Below, one piece after another: positions 23,625 through 29,736 of a stretch of 64,000 nucleotides of DNA. Origin of the DNA: Gemmatimonadota bacterium (lineage in GTDB: Bacteria > Gemmatimonadota > Gemmatimonadetes > Gemmatimonadales > Gemmatimonadaceae); NCBI GenBank assembly GCA_021324775.1, contig JAJPIM010000041.1, positions 1 to 64,000 on the forward strand, read 5' to 3'. The notes beneath the pieces were generated by a model. It searched no databases. It was given only the letters and a program-made list of their open reading frames with translations, and had not been told where the DNA came from. Position 1 is the first letter of the stretch; each line of letters opens with the position of its first letter. A program made the position numbers and the translations under genes.

Positions 23625-24341
23625 GTGAACTCGCCCGCGCTCGCGGCCGGCGGCGTGGCTGCGCTCGCGAACGTGGCCGGTGCGGCGATGGTGACCATCC
23701 GTGCACGATGGAGCTCGTCGGTCCTCGCGTTTCTGGTGGCCTTGGCCGCGGGTTTCATGCTTGGCGTGTCGCTCTCCGATCTCCTGCCTGACGCGATCCG
23801 CCGGGGAGGGGACAGCGCGGCCGCGGTGGCCCTCGGCGCGTACCTTCTGGTGTACGTCATGCAGCATGCTCTGCCAGGCCATTTTCATTTCAGCGAGCAG
23901 CCGGGTCATCTCAGTCCCACCGTGTCGCGATCGGCGATCGCCGGGCTGGTTCTTCACACGTTCTTCGATGGCGTCGCGATCTCGAGCGGCTTTTCGGTGA
24001 GTGCGGCGCTGGGCGTGCTGGTCCTCGTCGCGATCGGCTTGCACAAGATTCCAGAGGGCGTCGCGGCGTCGAGCCTGGTGCTCGCGGCAGGAGGCAGCAG
24101 GGGCAGCGCATTCGGTGCGGCCGTTATCCTGGGCATCTCGACGCTTCTCGGAGTGGTCGCCACGGGCGTCACGCCGGTCCTGGCGGCCAACGGGCTCGCG
24201 CTCTCGGCAGGCGTCACGCTCTACGTCGCCGCGTCGAACCTCGTCCCGGAGCTCCAGCGCGAGCCCGGCTGGCGCCCAGCTCTGGCCTGCGTGGCGGGCA
24301 GCGCGATCTACCTTGCCGCGCGGTCGCTGGTGGGCGTATGA
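23625..24341 (+). CDS. ZIP-family divalent metal transporter
   Basis: The 238-residue polytopic protein has about seven to eight membrane helices. Helix IV carries HTFFDGVAISSGF and helix V carries GLHKIPEGVAASSL, the two signature metal-binding stretches of ZIP transporters (HxxPEG). The family moves Zn, Fe or Mn into the cytoplasm. A histidine-containing loop (HALPGHFHFSEQPGHL) between helices III and IV could bind metal. The stop overlaps the rarA start by 4 bases (ATGA). Substrate metal is not determinable. Confidence 0.92.
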   Translation: MNSPALAAGGVAALANVAGAAMVTIRARWSSSVLAFLVALAAGFMLGVSLSDLLPDAIRRGGDSAAAVALGAYLLVYVMQHALPGHFHFSEQPGHLSPTVSRSAIAGLVLHTFFDGVAISSGFSVSAALGVLVLVAIGLHKIPEGVAASSLVLAAGGSRGSAFGAAVILGISTLLGVVATGVTPVLAANGLALSAGVTLYVAASNLVPELQREPGWRPALACVAGSAIYLAARSLVGV

Positions 24342-25750
24342 CGCCGCACCCACCCGCGTCCGCGCGGGCGCCCAAGAATCCCAGTTCAGCACTGCTGCCG
24401 GAACCGCTCGCGGCGCGGATGCGGCCGCGCACGCTCGATGAGTTTCTGGGACACGAGCAGCTCCTTGGCCCCGGCACACCGCTCCGAACGGAGATCGAAA
24501 GCGGGACCGTTGGATCGATGCTGTTCTGGGGCCCGCCGGGCTCGGGGAAGACGACCTTGGGGCGTCTCGTCGCGCAATACACCGACCGTGAGTTCGTTCC
24601 GTTCTCCGCCGTCACCGAAGGAGTGCCCCGGGTGCGGGTGATCGTCGGCGAAGCGGAGGCACGGCGCGCGGAGGGGCGGGGCACGGTGCTGTTCGTGGAC
24701 GAGATCCACCGGTTCAACCGCGCGCAACAGGACGCCTTCCTCCAGTACGTCGAGAATGGCACGCTGACGCTGATCGGCGCGACGACCGAAAACCCGTCAT
24801 TCGAGATCAACGGCGCGCTATTGTCGCGGCTCCGTGTGTTCGTGCTCGCACCATTGGCAGTTCACGATCTGGTGGCGATGGTCCGGACCGCACTCTCGGA
24901 TGCGGAGCGGGGACTCGGAGCGATGCACCTGACGATCGAGGATGCGGCACTCGAAACGATCGTGACGGAGGCGGACGGCGACGCGCGGCGTGCGCTCAAC
25001 TCTCTCGAAGCCGCCGCATCGTTCGTCGCGCGCCAGCGCGGCGGCGCCGGCGGCGGCGTGATTACCGCTGCCGCGGTTCGCGACGCGATGCAGGCGCGGG
25101 TGGCGCGGTACGACAAGTCGGGTGAAGAGCACTACAACCTCATCTCAGCCTACCACAAGGCGCTCCGGGGGAGCGACCCGCAGGGAGCCTTGTACTGGCT
25201 GGCGCGGATGATCGAGGGCGGCGAAGACCCGATGTACATCGCGCGGCGGACGGTGTGGTTTGCGGCCGAAGACGTTGGATTGGCCGACCCCACCGCGTTG
25301 CGGGTCGCCCTGGACGCGCGGGACACGTACCACTTCCTCGGCTCCCCTGAGGGAGAACTGGCTCTGGCGGAGGCGGCGGTCTACCTGGCGACCGCCCCGA
25401 AGTCGAATTCGGTCTACCGGGCGTGGGGGGCGGCCTTGGACCTGGCCCGGCGGACCCCGGCGGAGGGGGTACCGCTCCACCTCCGGAACGCCCCCACGAA
25501 ACTCATGAAAGACCTGGGTTACGGGCGGGGTTACCAATATGCGCATGGCGTGCCAGAGGCATACATTCCACAGGATTACCTGCCGGATGCGGCGGCCGGG
25601 AGCACCCTCTACGAGCCTGGGCCATTCGGCTTCGAGAAGGAGATCGCCAAGCGGCTGGCGTGGTGGGCGGATCTGCGTGCCAAGGCCGAGCGCAGTGCGG
25701 CGCCCGAGCCGGGCGCCGGGGCGCCGACGAGGGACCAAACGGATGGATAA
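24338..25750 (+). CDS. rarA: Replication-associated recombination protein A (RarA/MgsA) AAA+ ATPase
   Basis: The 470-residue protein is a clamp-loader-like AAA+ ATPase acting at stalled replication forks. It has Walker A GPPGSGKTTL, the Walker B/sensor stretch VLFVDEIHRFNRAQQDAFL, sensor 1 IGATTENPSFEINGALLSR, and the C-terminal tetramerisation region with EEHYNLISAYHKALRGSDP and DPMYIARR. The N-terminal 20 residues are a disordered Pro/Ala segment. Its TAA stop at 25748-25750 lies in exactly the same reading frame as the following hflX, and the frame stays open after it. Confidence 0.95.
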   Translation: MTPHPPASARAPKNPSSALLPEPLAARMRPRTLDEFLGHEQLLGPGTPLRTEIESGTVGSMLFWGPPGSGKTTLGRLVAQYTDREFVPFSAVTEGVPRVRVIVGEAEARRAEGRGTVLFVDEIHRFNRAQQDAFLQYVENGTLTLIGATTENPSFEINGALLSRLRVFVLAPLAVHDLVAMVRTALSDAERGLGAMHLTIEDAALETIVTEADGDARRALNSLEAAASFVARQRGGAGGGVITAAAVRDAMQARVARYDKSGEEHYNLISAYHKALRGSDPQGALYWLARMIEGGEDPMYIARRTVWFAAEDVGLADPTALRVALDARDTYHFLGSPEGELALAEAAVYLATAPKSNSVYRAWGAALDLARRTPAEGVPLHLRNAPTKLMKDLGYGRGYQYAHGVPEAYIPQDYLPDAAAGSTLYEPGPFGFEKEIAKRLAWWADLRAKAERSAAPEPGAGAPTRDQTDG

Positions 25751-25783
25751 ACCCAAGATGCCGGAGTTCGCATTTCGCGCGAG

Positions 25784-27082
25784 CTGATTTCGCTCGCGCC
25801 ATCCATCGAGCGTGCACTGCTCGTTGGAGCTCCGCTCAAGCGCTCAGGCGATCGTCACGTCGTAGACGATCACCTGGGGGAGCTAGCGCAACTGGCCGAC
25901 ACGGCGGGGGCGGTGGTGGTGGGAGAAGTCGTCCAGCGGCTGGAGCGGCCGCACCCCGCGACCTATCTCGGCACCGGCAAGATCGACGAGCTGCGAGCGC
26001 GGATCGAGGAGCTGCAGGCGTCCGTCGTGATCTTCGACGATGAGTTGACCCCGGCGCAGGGCAAGAATATCGAAGTGGCCACCGGCCGGCGGGTCATCGA
26101 CCGTGCCGAGCTGATCCTCGACATTTTCGCGACGCGGGCCCGCACGAGTGAAGCGAAGCTGCAGGTCGAGCTGGCCCAACTCGAATACATGCTGCCCCGT
26201 CTGACGCGGATGTGGGCACACCTGGAACGGGTCCGGGGCGGTATCGGCATGCGGGGCCCAGGTGAGACGCAGCTCGAGACCGACCGGCGGATGATTGGCC
26301 ACCGGATCAAACTCCTTCGCGAGCGGCTCGAGGACGTGGAGCGCACGCGGTCGGTGCAGCGCCAGGCGCGCCAGGGGGCGTTCCGGGTGGCGCTCGTCGG
26401 ATACACAAATGCGGGCAAGTCGTCCATTCTCAAGGGTATGACAGGGGCATCGGACGTCGTGGTCGAAGACCGGCTATTTGCGACGCTCGACCCGCTGACC
26501 CGGGACGCCGACGTGGGGGGTGGGGCACGGGTTCTCATGACGGACACCGTGGGCTTCATCCGCAAGCTGCCGCATCACCTCGTCGCCTCGTTCCGGGCGA
26601 CGCTCGAAGAAGTCACGGAGACCGATCTGTTGCTGCATGTCATCGACGCCAGCCATCCCGCGTGGGAGGACCAGCGCGCGGTCGTGGAGGACGTCCTCGC
26701 TGACCTGGGGGCGAGCCGGACGCCGATCCGGCACGTCTTCAACAAGATGGATCAACTCGACGGACCCAACGCCTCGGCGCTCAGGGATCGCGTGAGCAAC
26801 CTGCTGCCGGATTCGATCTTCGCCTCGGCCGTGACGGACTGCGGGCTCGACTCGCTGCGCCGGGAGCTGGCGGCCGCGGTCCGGGTGATGCGTCCGCTGT
26901 CGATCGTGCACCTCCCGGCGGATTCCGGCAAGCTTCTGGCCGATCTCTATCGGGAAGCGGAAGTCCTCAACGTGGGCACCGAGGGTTCGGCCGTCGTCGT
27001 GCGTGCGCGGATGGATGATGCGATGGCGGGACGGCTGCGGCGCGCCGGGGCCACCGTGAGTGCGGGGGTCGACCGTGATTAG
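25784..27082 (+). CDS. hflX: GTPase HflX, with unusual or damaged start
   Basis: HflX is a ribosome-associated GTPase that splits stalled or stressed 70S ribosomes. The HflX glycine-rich domain includes GTGKIDELRARIEE and GMRGPGETQLETDRR. The G domain has G1 GYTNAGKSS, the G3 region DTVGFIRKLPHHLV and G4 NKMD. Family similarity already begins near 25805 (IERALLVGAPLK), upstream of the first ordinary start codon in this frame, GTG 25913. Between the rarA stop (25748-25750) and 25913 there is no in-frame ATG, GTG or TTG; I give CTG 25784 as the nominal start. An ATG at 25743 in another frame (MDKPKMPEF) would reach hflX only by a -1 shift. So the start is non-canonical, frameshifted, or a sequence error. 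Confidence 0.85.
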   Translation: MISLAPSIERALLVGAPLKRSGDRHVVDDHLGELAQLADTAGAVVVGEVVQRLERPHPATYLGTGKIDELRARIEELQASVVIFDDELTPAQGKNIEVATGRRVIDRAELILDIFATRARTSEAKLQVELAQLEYMLPRLTRMWAHLERVRGGIGMRGPGETQLETDRRMIGHRIKLLRERLEDVERTRSVQRQARQGAFRVALVGYTNAGKSSILKGMTGASDVVVEDRLFATLDPLTRDADVGGGARVLMTDTVGFIRKLPHHLVASFRATLEEVTETDLLLHVIDASHPAWEDQRAVVEDVLADLGASRTPIRHVFNKMDQLDGPNASALRDRVSNLLPDSIFASAVTDCGLDSLRRELAAAVRVMRPLSIVHLPADSGKLLADLYREAEVLNVGTEGSAVVVRARMDDAMAGRLRRAGATVSAGVDRD

Positions 27083-28862
27083 CATGGCCGCCGCGATGAC
27101 CGGAGCCGGGGCCAGCGGATTTCGCAGTGCGCTGGGCGCAGCGGCGGGCACCGCGTTCGACGGGATACTGGGCAGTGTCGCTGGGCGGCCCAGCGTACGG
27201 GTCTACGCACTGGCGTTCGTGGCGGCCGCAGCGACGTCGATGCTCGCGACCTTCGCCGTTCGCCAGAAAGCACGGCGGGCCGGATTGTTCGATCTCAGCG
27301 ACGCGCGCAAGCTGCACGGCACGCAGATCCCGAGGGTCGGCGGCGTCGGAATCGTGCTGGCGGTTGCCATCACATCGATCTCGCTGTTCCTGTTGTTCGG
27401 CGGCAGCGTGTTCGCGGGCAGTGGCCGCGGGCTGCTGGTGGTATTCGCGGGCGGGTTGGCGATCCATGGCGTGGGCCTCTACGACGACCTGCGACAGCTT
27501 CACGCGCGCTGGAAGTTTCTCGCCCAGATCCTGATCGCGGTGCTGGTCTTCGCGGCGGGAGTCCGGATGACGACCCTGTCGCTCCCCTTCATTGGCGTCA
27601 TCGAGCTGGGTGGGGTCGCGGGCCTGGTGTTCACCGTACTGTGGTTCGTCGGCATCACCAACGCGTTCAACCTCATCGACGGCCTGGACGGGCTGGCGTC
27701 CGGCGCGGCGTTGTTCGCGCTGACGACGATGTTCGTGGTGGCGATCGCCAACGGACGCTTTGGCGCCGCGCTGGTGACGCTGATTCTGGCCGGCGCGATG
27801 CTGGGCTTTCTCTACTTCAACTTTCATCCGGCAACGATCTTCCTGGGTGATTCCGGAAGCCTGTTCGTCGGATTCATGCTTGCCGGCATCGGGGCGTTGA
27901 GCGCCCAGAAGTCGCCCACCGTGATCGCGGTCGCGATCCCCGTGGTATCGCTCGGGCTTCCGGTACTCGACACCCTGATCGCCGTCTCGCGCCGGTTCCT
28001 CCGCCGGCAGCCGATCTTCGCGGCGGATCGCGGGCACATCCATCACCGGTTGCTGGGGCGGGGTTATTCGCCGCGCGCGGTGGTACTGGCACTCTACGGC
28101 GTATGCGCGCTACTCGCGCTGGCCGGCATGCTCCTGGTGAACAACGGCGGCCACGTCGTGGCGTTGGTGCTCGTGACGATCGGGATCGGCGTCGGGTTCA
28201 TGGTGCAGCGGCTCCGTATCTACGAGTTCGAGGAAGTCGGCCGCTTGCTGCGGCGCGGAGTACGGCAGCGCCACACGATCGAGCGTGGAGTCCGGGTGCG
28301 GGAGGCGAGCGCCCGAATGGGTACGCTCGATGACCTTGCGGCGGTCTTCGTGGCACTCGGCGAGACGTTGGCGGAGGACGGATGTCCCAGGGCCGAGGTG
28401 CGCCTGCGGGCGGCATTTCTGGATGGGCGCCGTGGGTCCGTCGGCGGACGCGGACCGCATCGCCCGGACGCGACCGACGAAGACGATGTCGCCGTATGGA
28501 CGTGGAACGCGCCTGATGCGCCGCATTTGCAGCCGTCCTGGTGGCACGTCACACTGCCGCTCCTCGGCCATGATGGCCGCCGGTTCGGCTCCATGGTCCT
28601 CTGGGCGGACGGGGTGGGGGCGGGATCGCCATTCCCGCATTTCCACGCCATCTCCGGCGATTTGCGCGAACAGATCGAGGCCAAGCTCCTCACGCTCTGG
28701 CCGATGGGTGCTGGCCGGCGGCAAGCGCCTGGCGCGAGCGTAGCCGCGGCTGCCCCAGTGGCGGCCGCCCCGGCGGTGGCGAAGGGGATTTCATCCGGGG
28801 ATCGGGCGCGCGGCCGCGACCGTGTGCCGACGGGGTCCGGCCCCGCGGTCCCCATCGCCTAA
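27075..28862 (+). CDS. wecA: WecA/TagO-like undecaprenyl-phosphate sugar-1-phosphate transferase with extra C-terminal domain
   Basis: This membrane enzyme starts lipid-linked glycan synthesis by moving a sugar-1-phosphate, usually GlcNAc-1-P, to undecaprenyl phosphate. About ten helices span residues 35-385. Catalytic motifs include LYDDLRQL (Asp-Asp), TNAFNLIDGLDGLASG, NFHPATIFLGDSGSLFVG and the HIHHRLL loop. Unlike ordinary WecA (about 350-370 residues), a soluble C-terminal region of about 210 residues follows the last helix; its RMGTLDDLAAVFVALGETL and WWHVTLPLLGHDGRRFGSMVLW segments look GAF-like. A GTG at 27075 overlaps the hflX stop; ATG 27084 is the alternative. It is the first gene of the polysaccharide locus. 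Confidence 0.9.
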   Translation: MISMAAAMTGAGASGFRSALGAAAGTAFDGILGSVAGRPSVRVYALAFVAAAATSMLATFAVRQKARRAGLFDLSDARKLHGTQIPRVGGVGIVLAVAITSISLFLLFGGSVFAGSGRGLLVVFAGGLAIHGVGLYDDLRQLHARWKFLAQILIAVLVFAAGVRMTTLSLPFIGVIELGGVAGLVFTVLWFVGITNAFNLIDGLDGLASGAALFALTTMFVVAIANGRFGAALVTLILAGAMLGFLYFNFHPATIFLGDSGSLFVGFMLAGIGALSAQKSPTVIAVAIPVVSLGLPVLDTLIAVSRRFLRRQPIFAADRGHIHHRLLGRGYSPRAVVLALYGVCALLALAGMLLVNNGGHVVALVLVTIGIGVGFMVQRLRIYEFEEVGRLLRRGVRQRHTIERGVRVREASARMGTLDDLAAVFVALGETLAEDGCPRAEVRLRAAFLDGRRGSVGGRGPHRPDATDEDDVAVWTWNAPDAPHLQPSWWHVTLPLLGHDGRRFGSMVLWADGVGAGSPFPHFHAISGDLREQIEAKLLTLWPMGAGRRQAPGASVAAAAPVAAAPAVAKGISSGDRARGRDRVPTGSGPAVPIA

Positions 28863-28863
28863 A

Positions 28864-29736
28864 GTGCCGGTCGCCGTCGGGCCCGCTCCGATCGCCAGGG
28901 CGGTGCCGCCGGAGTCCGGGTCCGCGCCGCGGGTGTACCGCCGCCACCGTGGGTGGCGGATGCTCGATCTGCGCGAGCTCTGGGAGTTCCGCGAGCTCCT
29001 GTACTTTCTCGTCTGGCGCGACGTCAAAGTGCGATACAAGCAGACCGTCCTGGGAGCGCTCTGGGCGGTGCTGCAGCCTGCGCTGTTCATGGTCGTGTTC
29101 ACTCTGATCTTCGGCCGGCTGGCGCATCTGCCGAGCGATGGCGTCGCGTATCCGGTGTTCGTGTATGCGGGGCTGTTGCCGTGGACGTTCTTTGCGACGA
29201 CGGTGGCGATGTCGTCGACGAGCCTCGTCAACAGCGCGAACCTGATCACGAAGATCTACTTCCCCCGCATGATCGTGCCCCTGGCCGCGGTCGGCGTGGG
29301 CCTCGTGGATCTCGCCGTGGCTTCGGTGCTCATGGCCGGGCTGCTGGCGTGGTATCATGTGGCGCTGACGCCCCTGCTCCTGCTCGCGCCCGTGTTTACG
29401 CTGGGCGTGATGCTGGCGGCGATCGGCATCGGGGCCCTGCTGGCGGCCCTCACCGTGACGTACCGCGATTTCCGCTACATCGTACCCTTTGCCGTGCAAC
29501 TCTGGATGTATGCGACACCCGTCGTGTACGCGGCGAGTTCGGTGCCGGAGCGGTGGCGCGTTCCCTTCGCGATGAACCCCATGACGGGGATGACGGACGG
29601 GTTTCGCGCATCGATGCTCGGGCGGCCACCGTCCTGGGATCTGGTCGTGATTTCGGCGGTCGCGGTCTGCCTTTCACTGGTGGCGGGCATCGCGTACTTC
29701 CAGCGCGTCGAGAGGCGGTTCGTCGATGTCGTCTAG
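28864..29736 (+). CDS. wzm: ABC-2 polysaccharide export permease (Wzm-like)
   Basis: The 290-residue protein has six predicted membrane helices after a soluble N-terminus. The segment LREL...FRELLYFLVWRDVKVRYKQT before the first helix, together with GALWAVLQPALFMVVF and LPWTFFATTVA, is diagnostic of the Wzm/TagG/KpsM exporter family. With the adjacent ATPase it should flip or secrete a lipid-linked polysaccharide across the inner membrane. The GTG at 28864, one base after the wecA stop, is chosen because the frame before it overlaps wecA. Its end overlaps the ATPase gene by 11 bases. Confidence 0.93.
   Translation: MPVAVGPAPIARAVPPESGSAPRVYRRHRGWRMLDLRELWEFRELLYFLVWRDVKVRYKQTVLGALWAVLQPALFMVVFTLIFGRLAHLPSDGVAYPVFVYAGLLPWTFFATTVAMSSTSLVNSANLITKIYFPRMIVPLAAVGVGLVDLAVASVLMAGLLAWYHVALTPLLLLAPVFTLGVMLAAIGIGALLAALTVTYRDFRYIVPFAVQLWMYATPVVYAASSVPERWRVPFAMNPMTGMTDGFRASMLGRPPSWDLVVISAVAVCLSLVAGIAYFQRVERRFVDVV

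Follow-up and report, generated by a model that had tools for sequence, protein, structure and literature searches.

A probable conserved AUU, AUC, or AUA start codon for hflX in the bacterial class Gemmatimonadetes

Our comparison indicates that hflX, the gene for a ribosome-splitting GTPase, almost certainly begins at an ATT codon in a genome of the family Gemmatimonadaceae and has for its ribosome-binding site a GGAG whose first base is at -9. The alignment of related genomes gives good support to the position of the start codon, its identity as ATT, ATC, or ATA (hereafter ATH), and its conservation over most of the class. This codon is expected to be decoded by the initiator tRNA as fMet.

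The hflX locus and its start codon within the family

The window, i.e. the whole stretch of DNA analysed, comprises bases 1-64000 of contig C34 of genome G000 (Gemmatimonadaceae), the nearest named relatives of which are metagenome-assembled genomes (MAGs) of Gemmatimonadetes and Gemmatimonadaceae. Coordinates are given in Table 1. The product of the gene is identified as HflX by its Pfam domains (PF13167, GTP-bdg_N; PF16360, GTP-bdg_M; and PF01926, MMR_HSR1; all over the cut-off) and by matches to PDB structures of HflX from E. coli and of other HflX proteins (E-values down to 3.5e-83). As the original prediction had stated, rarA ends at TAA 25748-25750, the hflX frame is open from 25751 to its stop at 27080-27082, and GTG 25913 is the earliest in-frame ATG, GTG, or TTG in the list of open reading frames of the window, with no usable canonical start nearby before it. 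The measured gap between the rarA stop and the ATT is 21 nt.

Table 1. Features of the hflX locus in the window
Feature	Position	Strand	Basis and remarks
rarA (AAA ATPase; name taken from the original prediction)	24338..25750	+	upstream gene; open reading frame list
14-codon mini-ORF (ATG...TGA)	25743..25787	+	overlaps the rarA stop and spans the hflX start; read from the sequence
GGAG, putative Shine-Dalgarno (SD) core of hflX	25763..25766	+	first base at -9 from ATT; sequence and SD statistics of relatives
ATT, probable start codon of hflX	25772..25774	+	aligned column is ATC, ATT, or ATA in 60/74 family genomes; most exceptions canonical there
hflX coding sequence, ribosome-splitting GTPase	25772..27082	+	436 codons plus stop; Pfam and PDB matches

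We compared 74 genomes from 28 genera of the window's own family (designated f1). The start was assigned to ATC in 51, ATT in 6, ATA in 5, GTG in 5, ATG in 3, ACG in 2, TTG in 1, and GTT in 1. Thus, hflX has an ATH start in 62 of the 74 genomes and in 24 of the 28 genera; the latter is the fairer number, since the former counts every genome, and relatives are not independent of each other. The 62 include the starts one codon later than the aligned column of Table 1. Most genomes are metagenome-assembled, and the single-contig genomes G045, G046, and G047 agree with them. The ATH codon sits twelve codons 5' of the conserved ERA..LVGAP motif. In 53 of the 74 genomes, no in-frame ATG, GTG, or TTG occurs between the upstream stop and a point two codons ahead of ERA, and the same situation recurs across the class, so the missing canonical start pointed out in the original prediction is not due to chance. 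The distance from the upstream in-frame stop to the ATH codon ranges from 2 to more than 100 codons; in some relatives, just two or three codons separate the two, and no other start of hflX is then plausible. The exceptions in the same column are GTG (five), TTG (one), and ATG (one); the genera g7, g8, g19, g30, and part of g31 start hflX with GTG, TTG, or ATG. In genus g35, ACG occupies the column in two relatives (L147 and L149; G173 and G166), one of which has a stop two codons upstream. ACG may serve as the start of hflX in these two relatives.

Sequence conservation changes abruptly at the ATH codon. The amino-acid entropy per column was 2.7-3.8 bits upstream, fell to 0 at the ATH codon, and stayed low downstream. 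At the three codon positions, pairwise differences were flat upstream (0.73, 0.73, and 0.72) and periodic downstream (0.37, 0.25, and 0.55), and at the start codon itself the third base alone changes (0, 0, and 0.32). The other nearly invariant isoleucine, at codon +5, has no NTG codon among the relatives, unlike the start column.

In the 62 relatives with ATH starts, hardly any SD core has its first base outside the range -12 to -9. A core at -13 to -8 was found for 45/62 ATH starts and for 69/390 internal ATH codons (73% vs 18%; Fisher P 1.5e-17). The remaining 17/62 have no core SD 4-mer at the usual place, which counts against the assignment. The position of the SD core strongly separates real from internal ATH codons, whereas the SD duplex energy does so weakly (P 0.02). 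A search of the G000 assembly for its own 16S rRNA, as the source of the anti-SD sequence, found none.

The original prediction was right in kind in proposing a rare start codon, but the codon is most probably ATT 25772, which was absent from its list, rather than CTG 25784. The latter lies in the hflX frame, as stated, but relatives have Pro, Ile, Ser, Thr, or Leu in its column, so it was rejected as a start. The frame of ATG 25743, encoding MDKPKMPEFAFRAS, ends at TGA 25785-25787, also in agreement with the original prediction. A similar 14-codon frame (MTESTIPELASRAS) is present in G001, and G002 has no such ATG. In Listeria, hflXr is controlled by a 14-amino-acid leader peptide with an RLR motif (PMC6310831); this motif is absent from the 14-codon mini-ORF of the window.

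Several other features of the loci were observed. In G000, a strong hairpin (GCGCGAGC/GCUCGCGC; window 25777-25800) lies immediately 3' of the ATT; sequence comparison showed that it is not kept in G001. At locus L022 (955-1473), from another genus, a small gene lies directly 5' of hflX, the place of rarA in G000. Genome G117 has two near-full-length hflX matches (contigs C244 and C120).

Distribution in the phylum and the start codon of infC

Individual reading covered about 160 hflX starts of the phylum, a part of the matches from the wider searches. Outside f1, starts were assigned from the position preference in each family together with inspection by eye. ATH starts of hflX are also present in the sister families f2, f3, and f5 to f8 of the class. 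In f2, ATT or ATC was found in 17 of 18 cases, mostly one codon later; in f5, ATT, ATA, or ATC was found in 24 of 30; and in f6, f7, and f8 the start is mostly ATH. SD cores back these starts in f2 (17/17), f5 (22/24), f6 (5/5), and f7 (6/6), but in f8 they do so in only 1/4. Family f9 is mixed, several members having ATG or GTG at hflX, and f10, from the other class of the phylum, has ATG. In Latescibacterota, hflX starts mostly with ATG or TTG, so outside the class the trait is not a general one. A single Latescibacterota MAG (G425; L255 and L264) appears to share it, with only ATC candidates for hflX, after TAA GGA GGT GTC, and an ATT candidate for infC.

In nearly all f1 genomes read, the gene for initiation factor IF3, infC, begins with ATC or ATT, and the next codons are CAG GAN. 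Its start is CTG or ATC in most of f2 and ATH in most of f4 to f8. The apparent CTG starts in f2 (CTG TCN ...; L344, L348, L354, L284, and L270) are non-canonical as well. In f10 and most of f9, infC starts with GTG, and hflX there likewise has ATG or GTG candidates. Some genera of f1 combine a canonical hflX start with an ATH start in infC; the trait of hflX is thus nested within that of infC. In the f1 genera with GTG, TTG, or ATG at hflX, infC, where readable, mostly still starts with ATH; the link with IF3 is thus dispensable for hflX. A few infC starts are ambiguous (e.g., in G043, G188, and G283). Four genomes (G326, G344, G372, and G404) have two IF3 N-domain matches each; in G404, one match seemingly starts at ATC and the other at TTG.

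On the contig of the window (174 kb), the infC start is at 95273 in C34 coordinates, outside the window. Among the 81 frames with homologues on this contig, a small sample compared with partial genomes, hflX and infC are the sole clear cases without a canonical start. The scan flagged 17 of the 81 frames; on inspection, most were small alignment overhangs over a normal ATG or GTG, or wrong-frame open reading frames. For two doubtful frames, 28744-29733 and contig 86086-86826, a canonical start is available. Genome-wide relaxation of initiation was also considered and, on this small sample, was rejected, since hflX and infC alone remain of the 17 flagged frames.

Proposed mechanism and rival readings

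At start codons outside the set AUG, GUG, and UUG, IF3 makes the initiation complex less stable, and this is the basis of the autoregulation of infC; the non-canonical start of Streptomyces sigR is likewise repressed by IF3 (PMC5472188). In vitro, IF3 tolerates Watson-Crick pairs alone at the first two bases of the start codon and rejects weak third-base pairs (PMC10158994). AUU, AUC, and AUA retain the first two bases. HflX splits 70S ribosomes under stress, and IF3 stops the free 30S subunits from rejoining (PMC9067457).

We propose that IF3 would reject the weak pairing at the start codon and thereby hold the translation of hflX low. A shortage of free IF3 relative to 30S subunits would release hflX together with infC; stalled or idle 70S ribosomes would then be split by HflX, and the new IF3 would hold the released 30S subunits apart. 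As IF3 discriminates such starts and the roles of HflX and IF3 are complementary, a joint rise of the two proteins at low free IF3 is plausible. We consider the ATT start, with weak, IF3-discriminated initiation as its working mechanism, highly probable, and we infer that the initiation of hflX is likely to be sensitive to IF3. Whether the ATT has a real regulatory role, rather than merely setting a low fixed rate, appears evenly balanced. A two-gene translational circuit in most Gemmatimonadetes, in which falling free IF3 would raise both hflX and infC through their AUU, AUC, or AUA starts, is put forward tentatively, as a possibility slightly short of even.

Of the rival readings, the most serious accepts the ATH start as real and holds that it does no more than keep HflX synthesis at a low, fixed rate, as has been reported for E. 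coli pcnB, the level of IF3 being no signal. Non-canonical starts gave about 10% of the output of AUG in S. aureus reporters (PMC13009471), the exceptions in f1 are mostly weak starts too (GTG and TTG), and E. coli hflX has a TTG start. A weak ribosome-binding site or TTG would suffice for this purpose, however, and the class-wide preference for ATH over GTG and TTG and the parallel with infC point to IF3. We regard the fixed rate as a substantial possibility, though a somewhat doubtful one. Translational coupling, in which ribosomes from the rarA stop (TAA 25750) or the mini-ORF stop (TGA 25787) would reinitiate at ATT 25772, fits the short distance from the rarA stop (21 nt) and the overlap of the mini-ORF with the start in G000 and G001. 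Other genera have a different upstream gene, or one hundreds of bases away, and no mini-ORF, and still have the ATH start; coupling is therefore unlikely and would be at most an addition in the genus of the window.

The explanations that dispense with an ATH start fare much worse. The original prediction had suggested a frameshift, and a -1 shift from ATG 25743 that would fuse the mini-ORF to hflX could draw on the fair SD sequence (GAGGGA) at this ATG and on the overlap of the frames. No slippery heptamer is present, though; the overlap, the ATG, and the mini-ORF are not conserved outside the genus; conservation starts at the ATT and not upstream; and the ATH codon persists although the upstream gene, the distance of the in-frame stop, and the upstream sequence change. 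We consider such a shift very improbable. Translation from GTG 25913, with the upstream match left untranslated, has in its favour that this is the first canonical start in frame; codons 2-47, which precede it, evolve as coding sequence (between G000 and G001, 24 codon differences are synonymous and 4 nonsynonymous), and a start at the GTG would cut the Pfam N-terminal domain, as this domain starts 15 residues earlier, at residue 40 of the open frame. Hardly any weight can thus be given to this start. An assembly error or a broken gene, which the original prediction had raised as a one-base deletion, would account for the missing canonical start and nothing else. Independent genomes, including the three single-contig ones, show the same arrangement, which recurs in dozens of genomes, and the gene is under strong purifying selection; the pattern that the original prediction had named as the sign of such an error, an ATG in frame in the relatives together with one extra base, was not found. 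This explanation is scarcely credible. Stop-codon readthrough from rarA, another earlier proposal, was rejected: the upstream gene, the stop distance, and the upstream sequence vary while the ATH codon stays, and the frame is not conserved across the stop (upstream, the entropy is about 3.5 bits and codon periodicity is absent).

Known non-canonical starts and significance

Non-canonical start codons are already known in infC, pcnB, sigR, ccpN, and cvfC1, and have been inferred in lepA; the case of hflX is apparently unreported, as our search of the open-access literature found no report of a non-canonical hflX start. E. coli infC has an AUU start and is autoregulated (Butler et al. 1987, cited in PMC1780047; PMC5472188). 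Like infC, hflX belongs to the ribosome cycle and has a conserved AUU, AUC, or AUA start, and in the genomes studied here the two genes share this trait; the difference is that HflX is a splitting GTPase and not IF3, and autoregulation by its own product is not implied. The AUU start of E. coli pcnB limits expression (Binns and Masters 2002, cited in PMC1780047); like hflX, pcnB is a chromosomal gene with an AUU start, although its function is unrelated. Streptomyces sigR has a GTC start that is conserved in the genus and repressed by IF3 in vivo (PMC5472188); sigR encodes a sigma factor and the trait concerns Streptomyces only, unlike the ATH of hflX in several families. In S. aureus, initiation profiling revealed conserved ATH starts with SD support in ccpN (AUA) and cvfC1 (AUU) (PMC13009471); these are other genes in another phylum, with an extended SD sequence in place of the ordinary GGAG-type cores at hflX.

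In the case of lepA, also a translational GTPase gene, the full length needs an AUU start; unlike hflX, these are two isolated inferred cases with no conservation shown. We know of no class-wide conservation of the AUU start of pcnB. The same gene in E. coli, hflX, has a weak start as well, TTG. UUG is one of the three canonical start codons.

Conserved non-canonical starts are rare, and the genes known to rely on them are few. In these genomes, a gene caller that accepts nothing but ATG, GTG, and TTG must set the start of hflX in the wrong place, making the gene too short here (GTG 25913) and too long or too short elsewhere. A class-wide case in a ribosome-splitting factor, in genomes whose infC behaves alike, suggests a connection of IF3 supply with ribosome splitting that can be tested directly. 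The rare start shared by hflX and infC suggests that the cells tie ribosome splitting to the supply of IF3. If the proposed circuit is true, the fidelity of start-codon selection would control ribosome recycling under stress.
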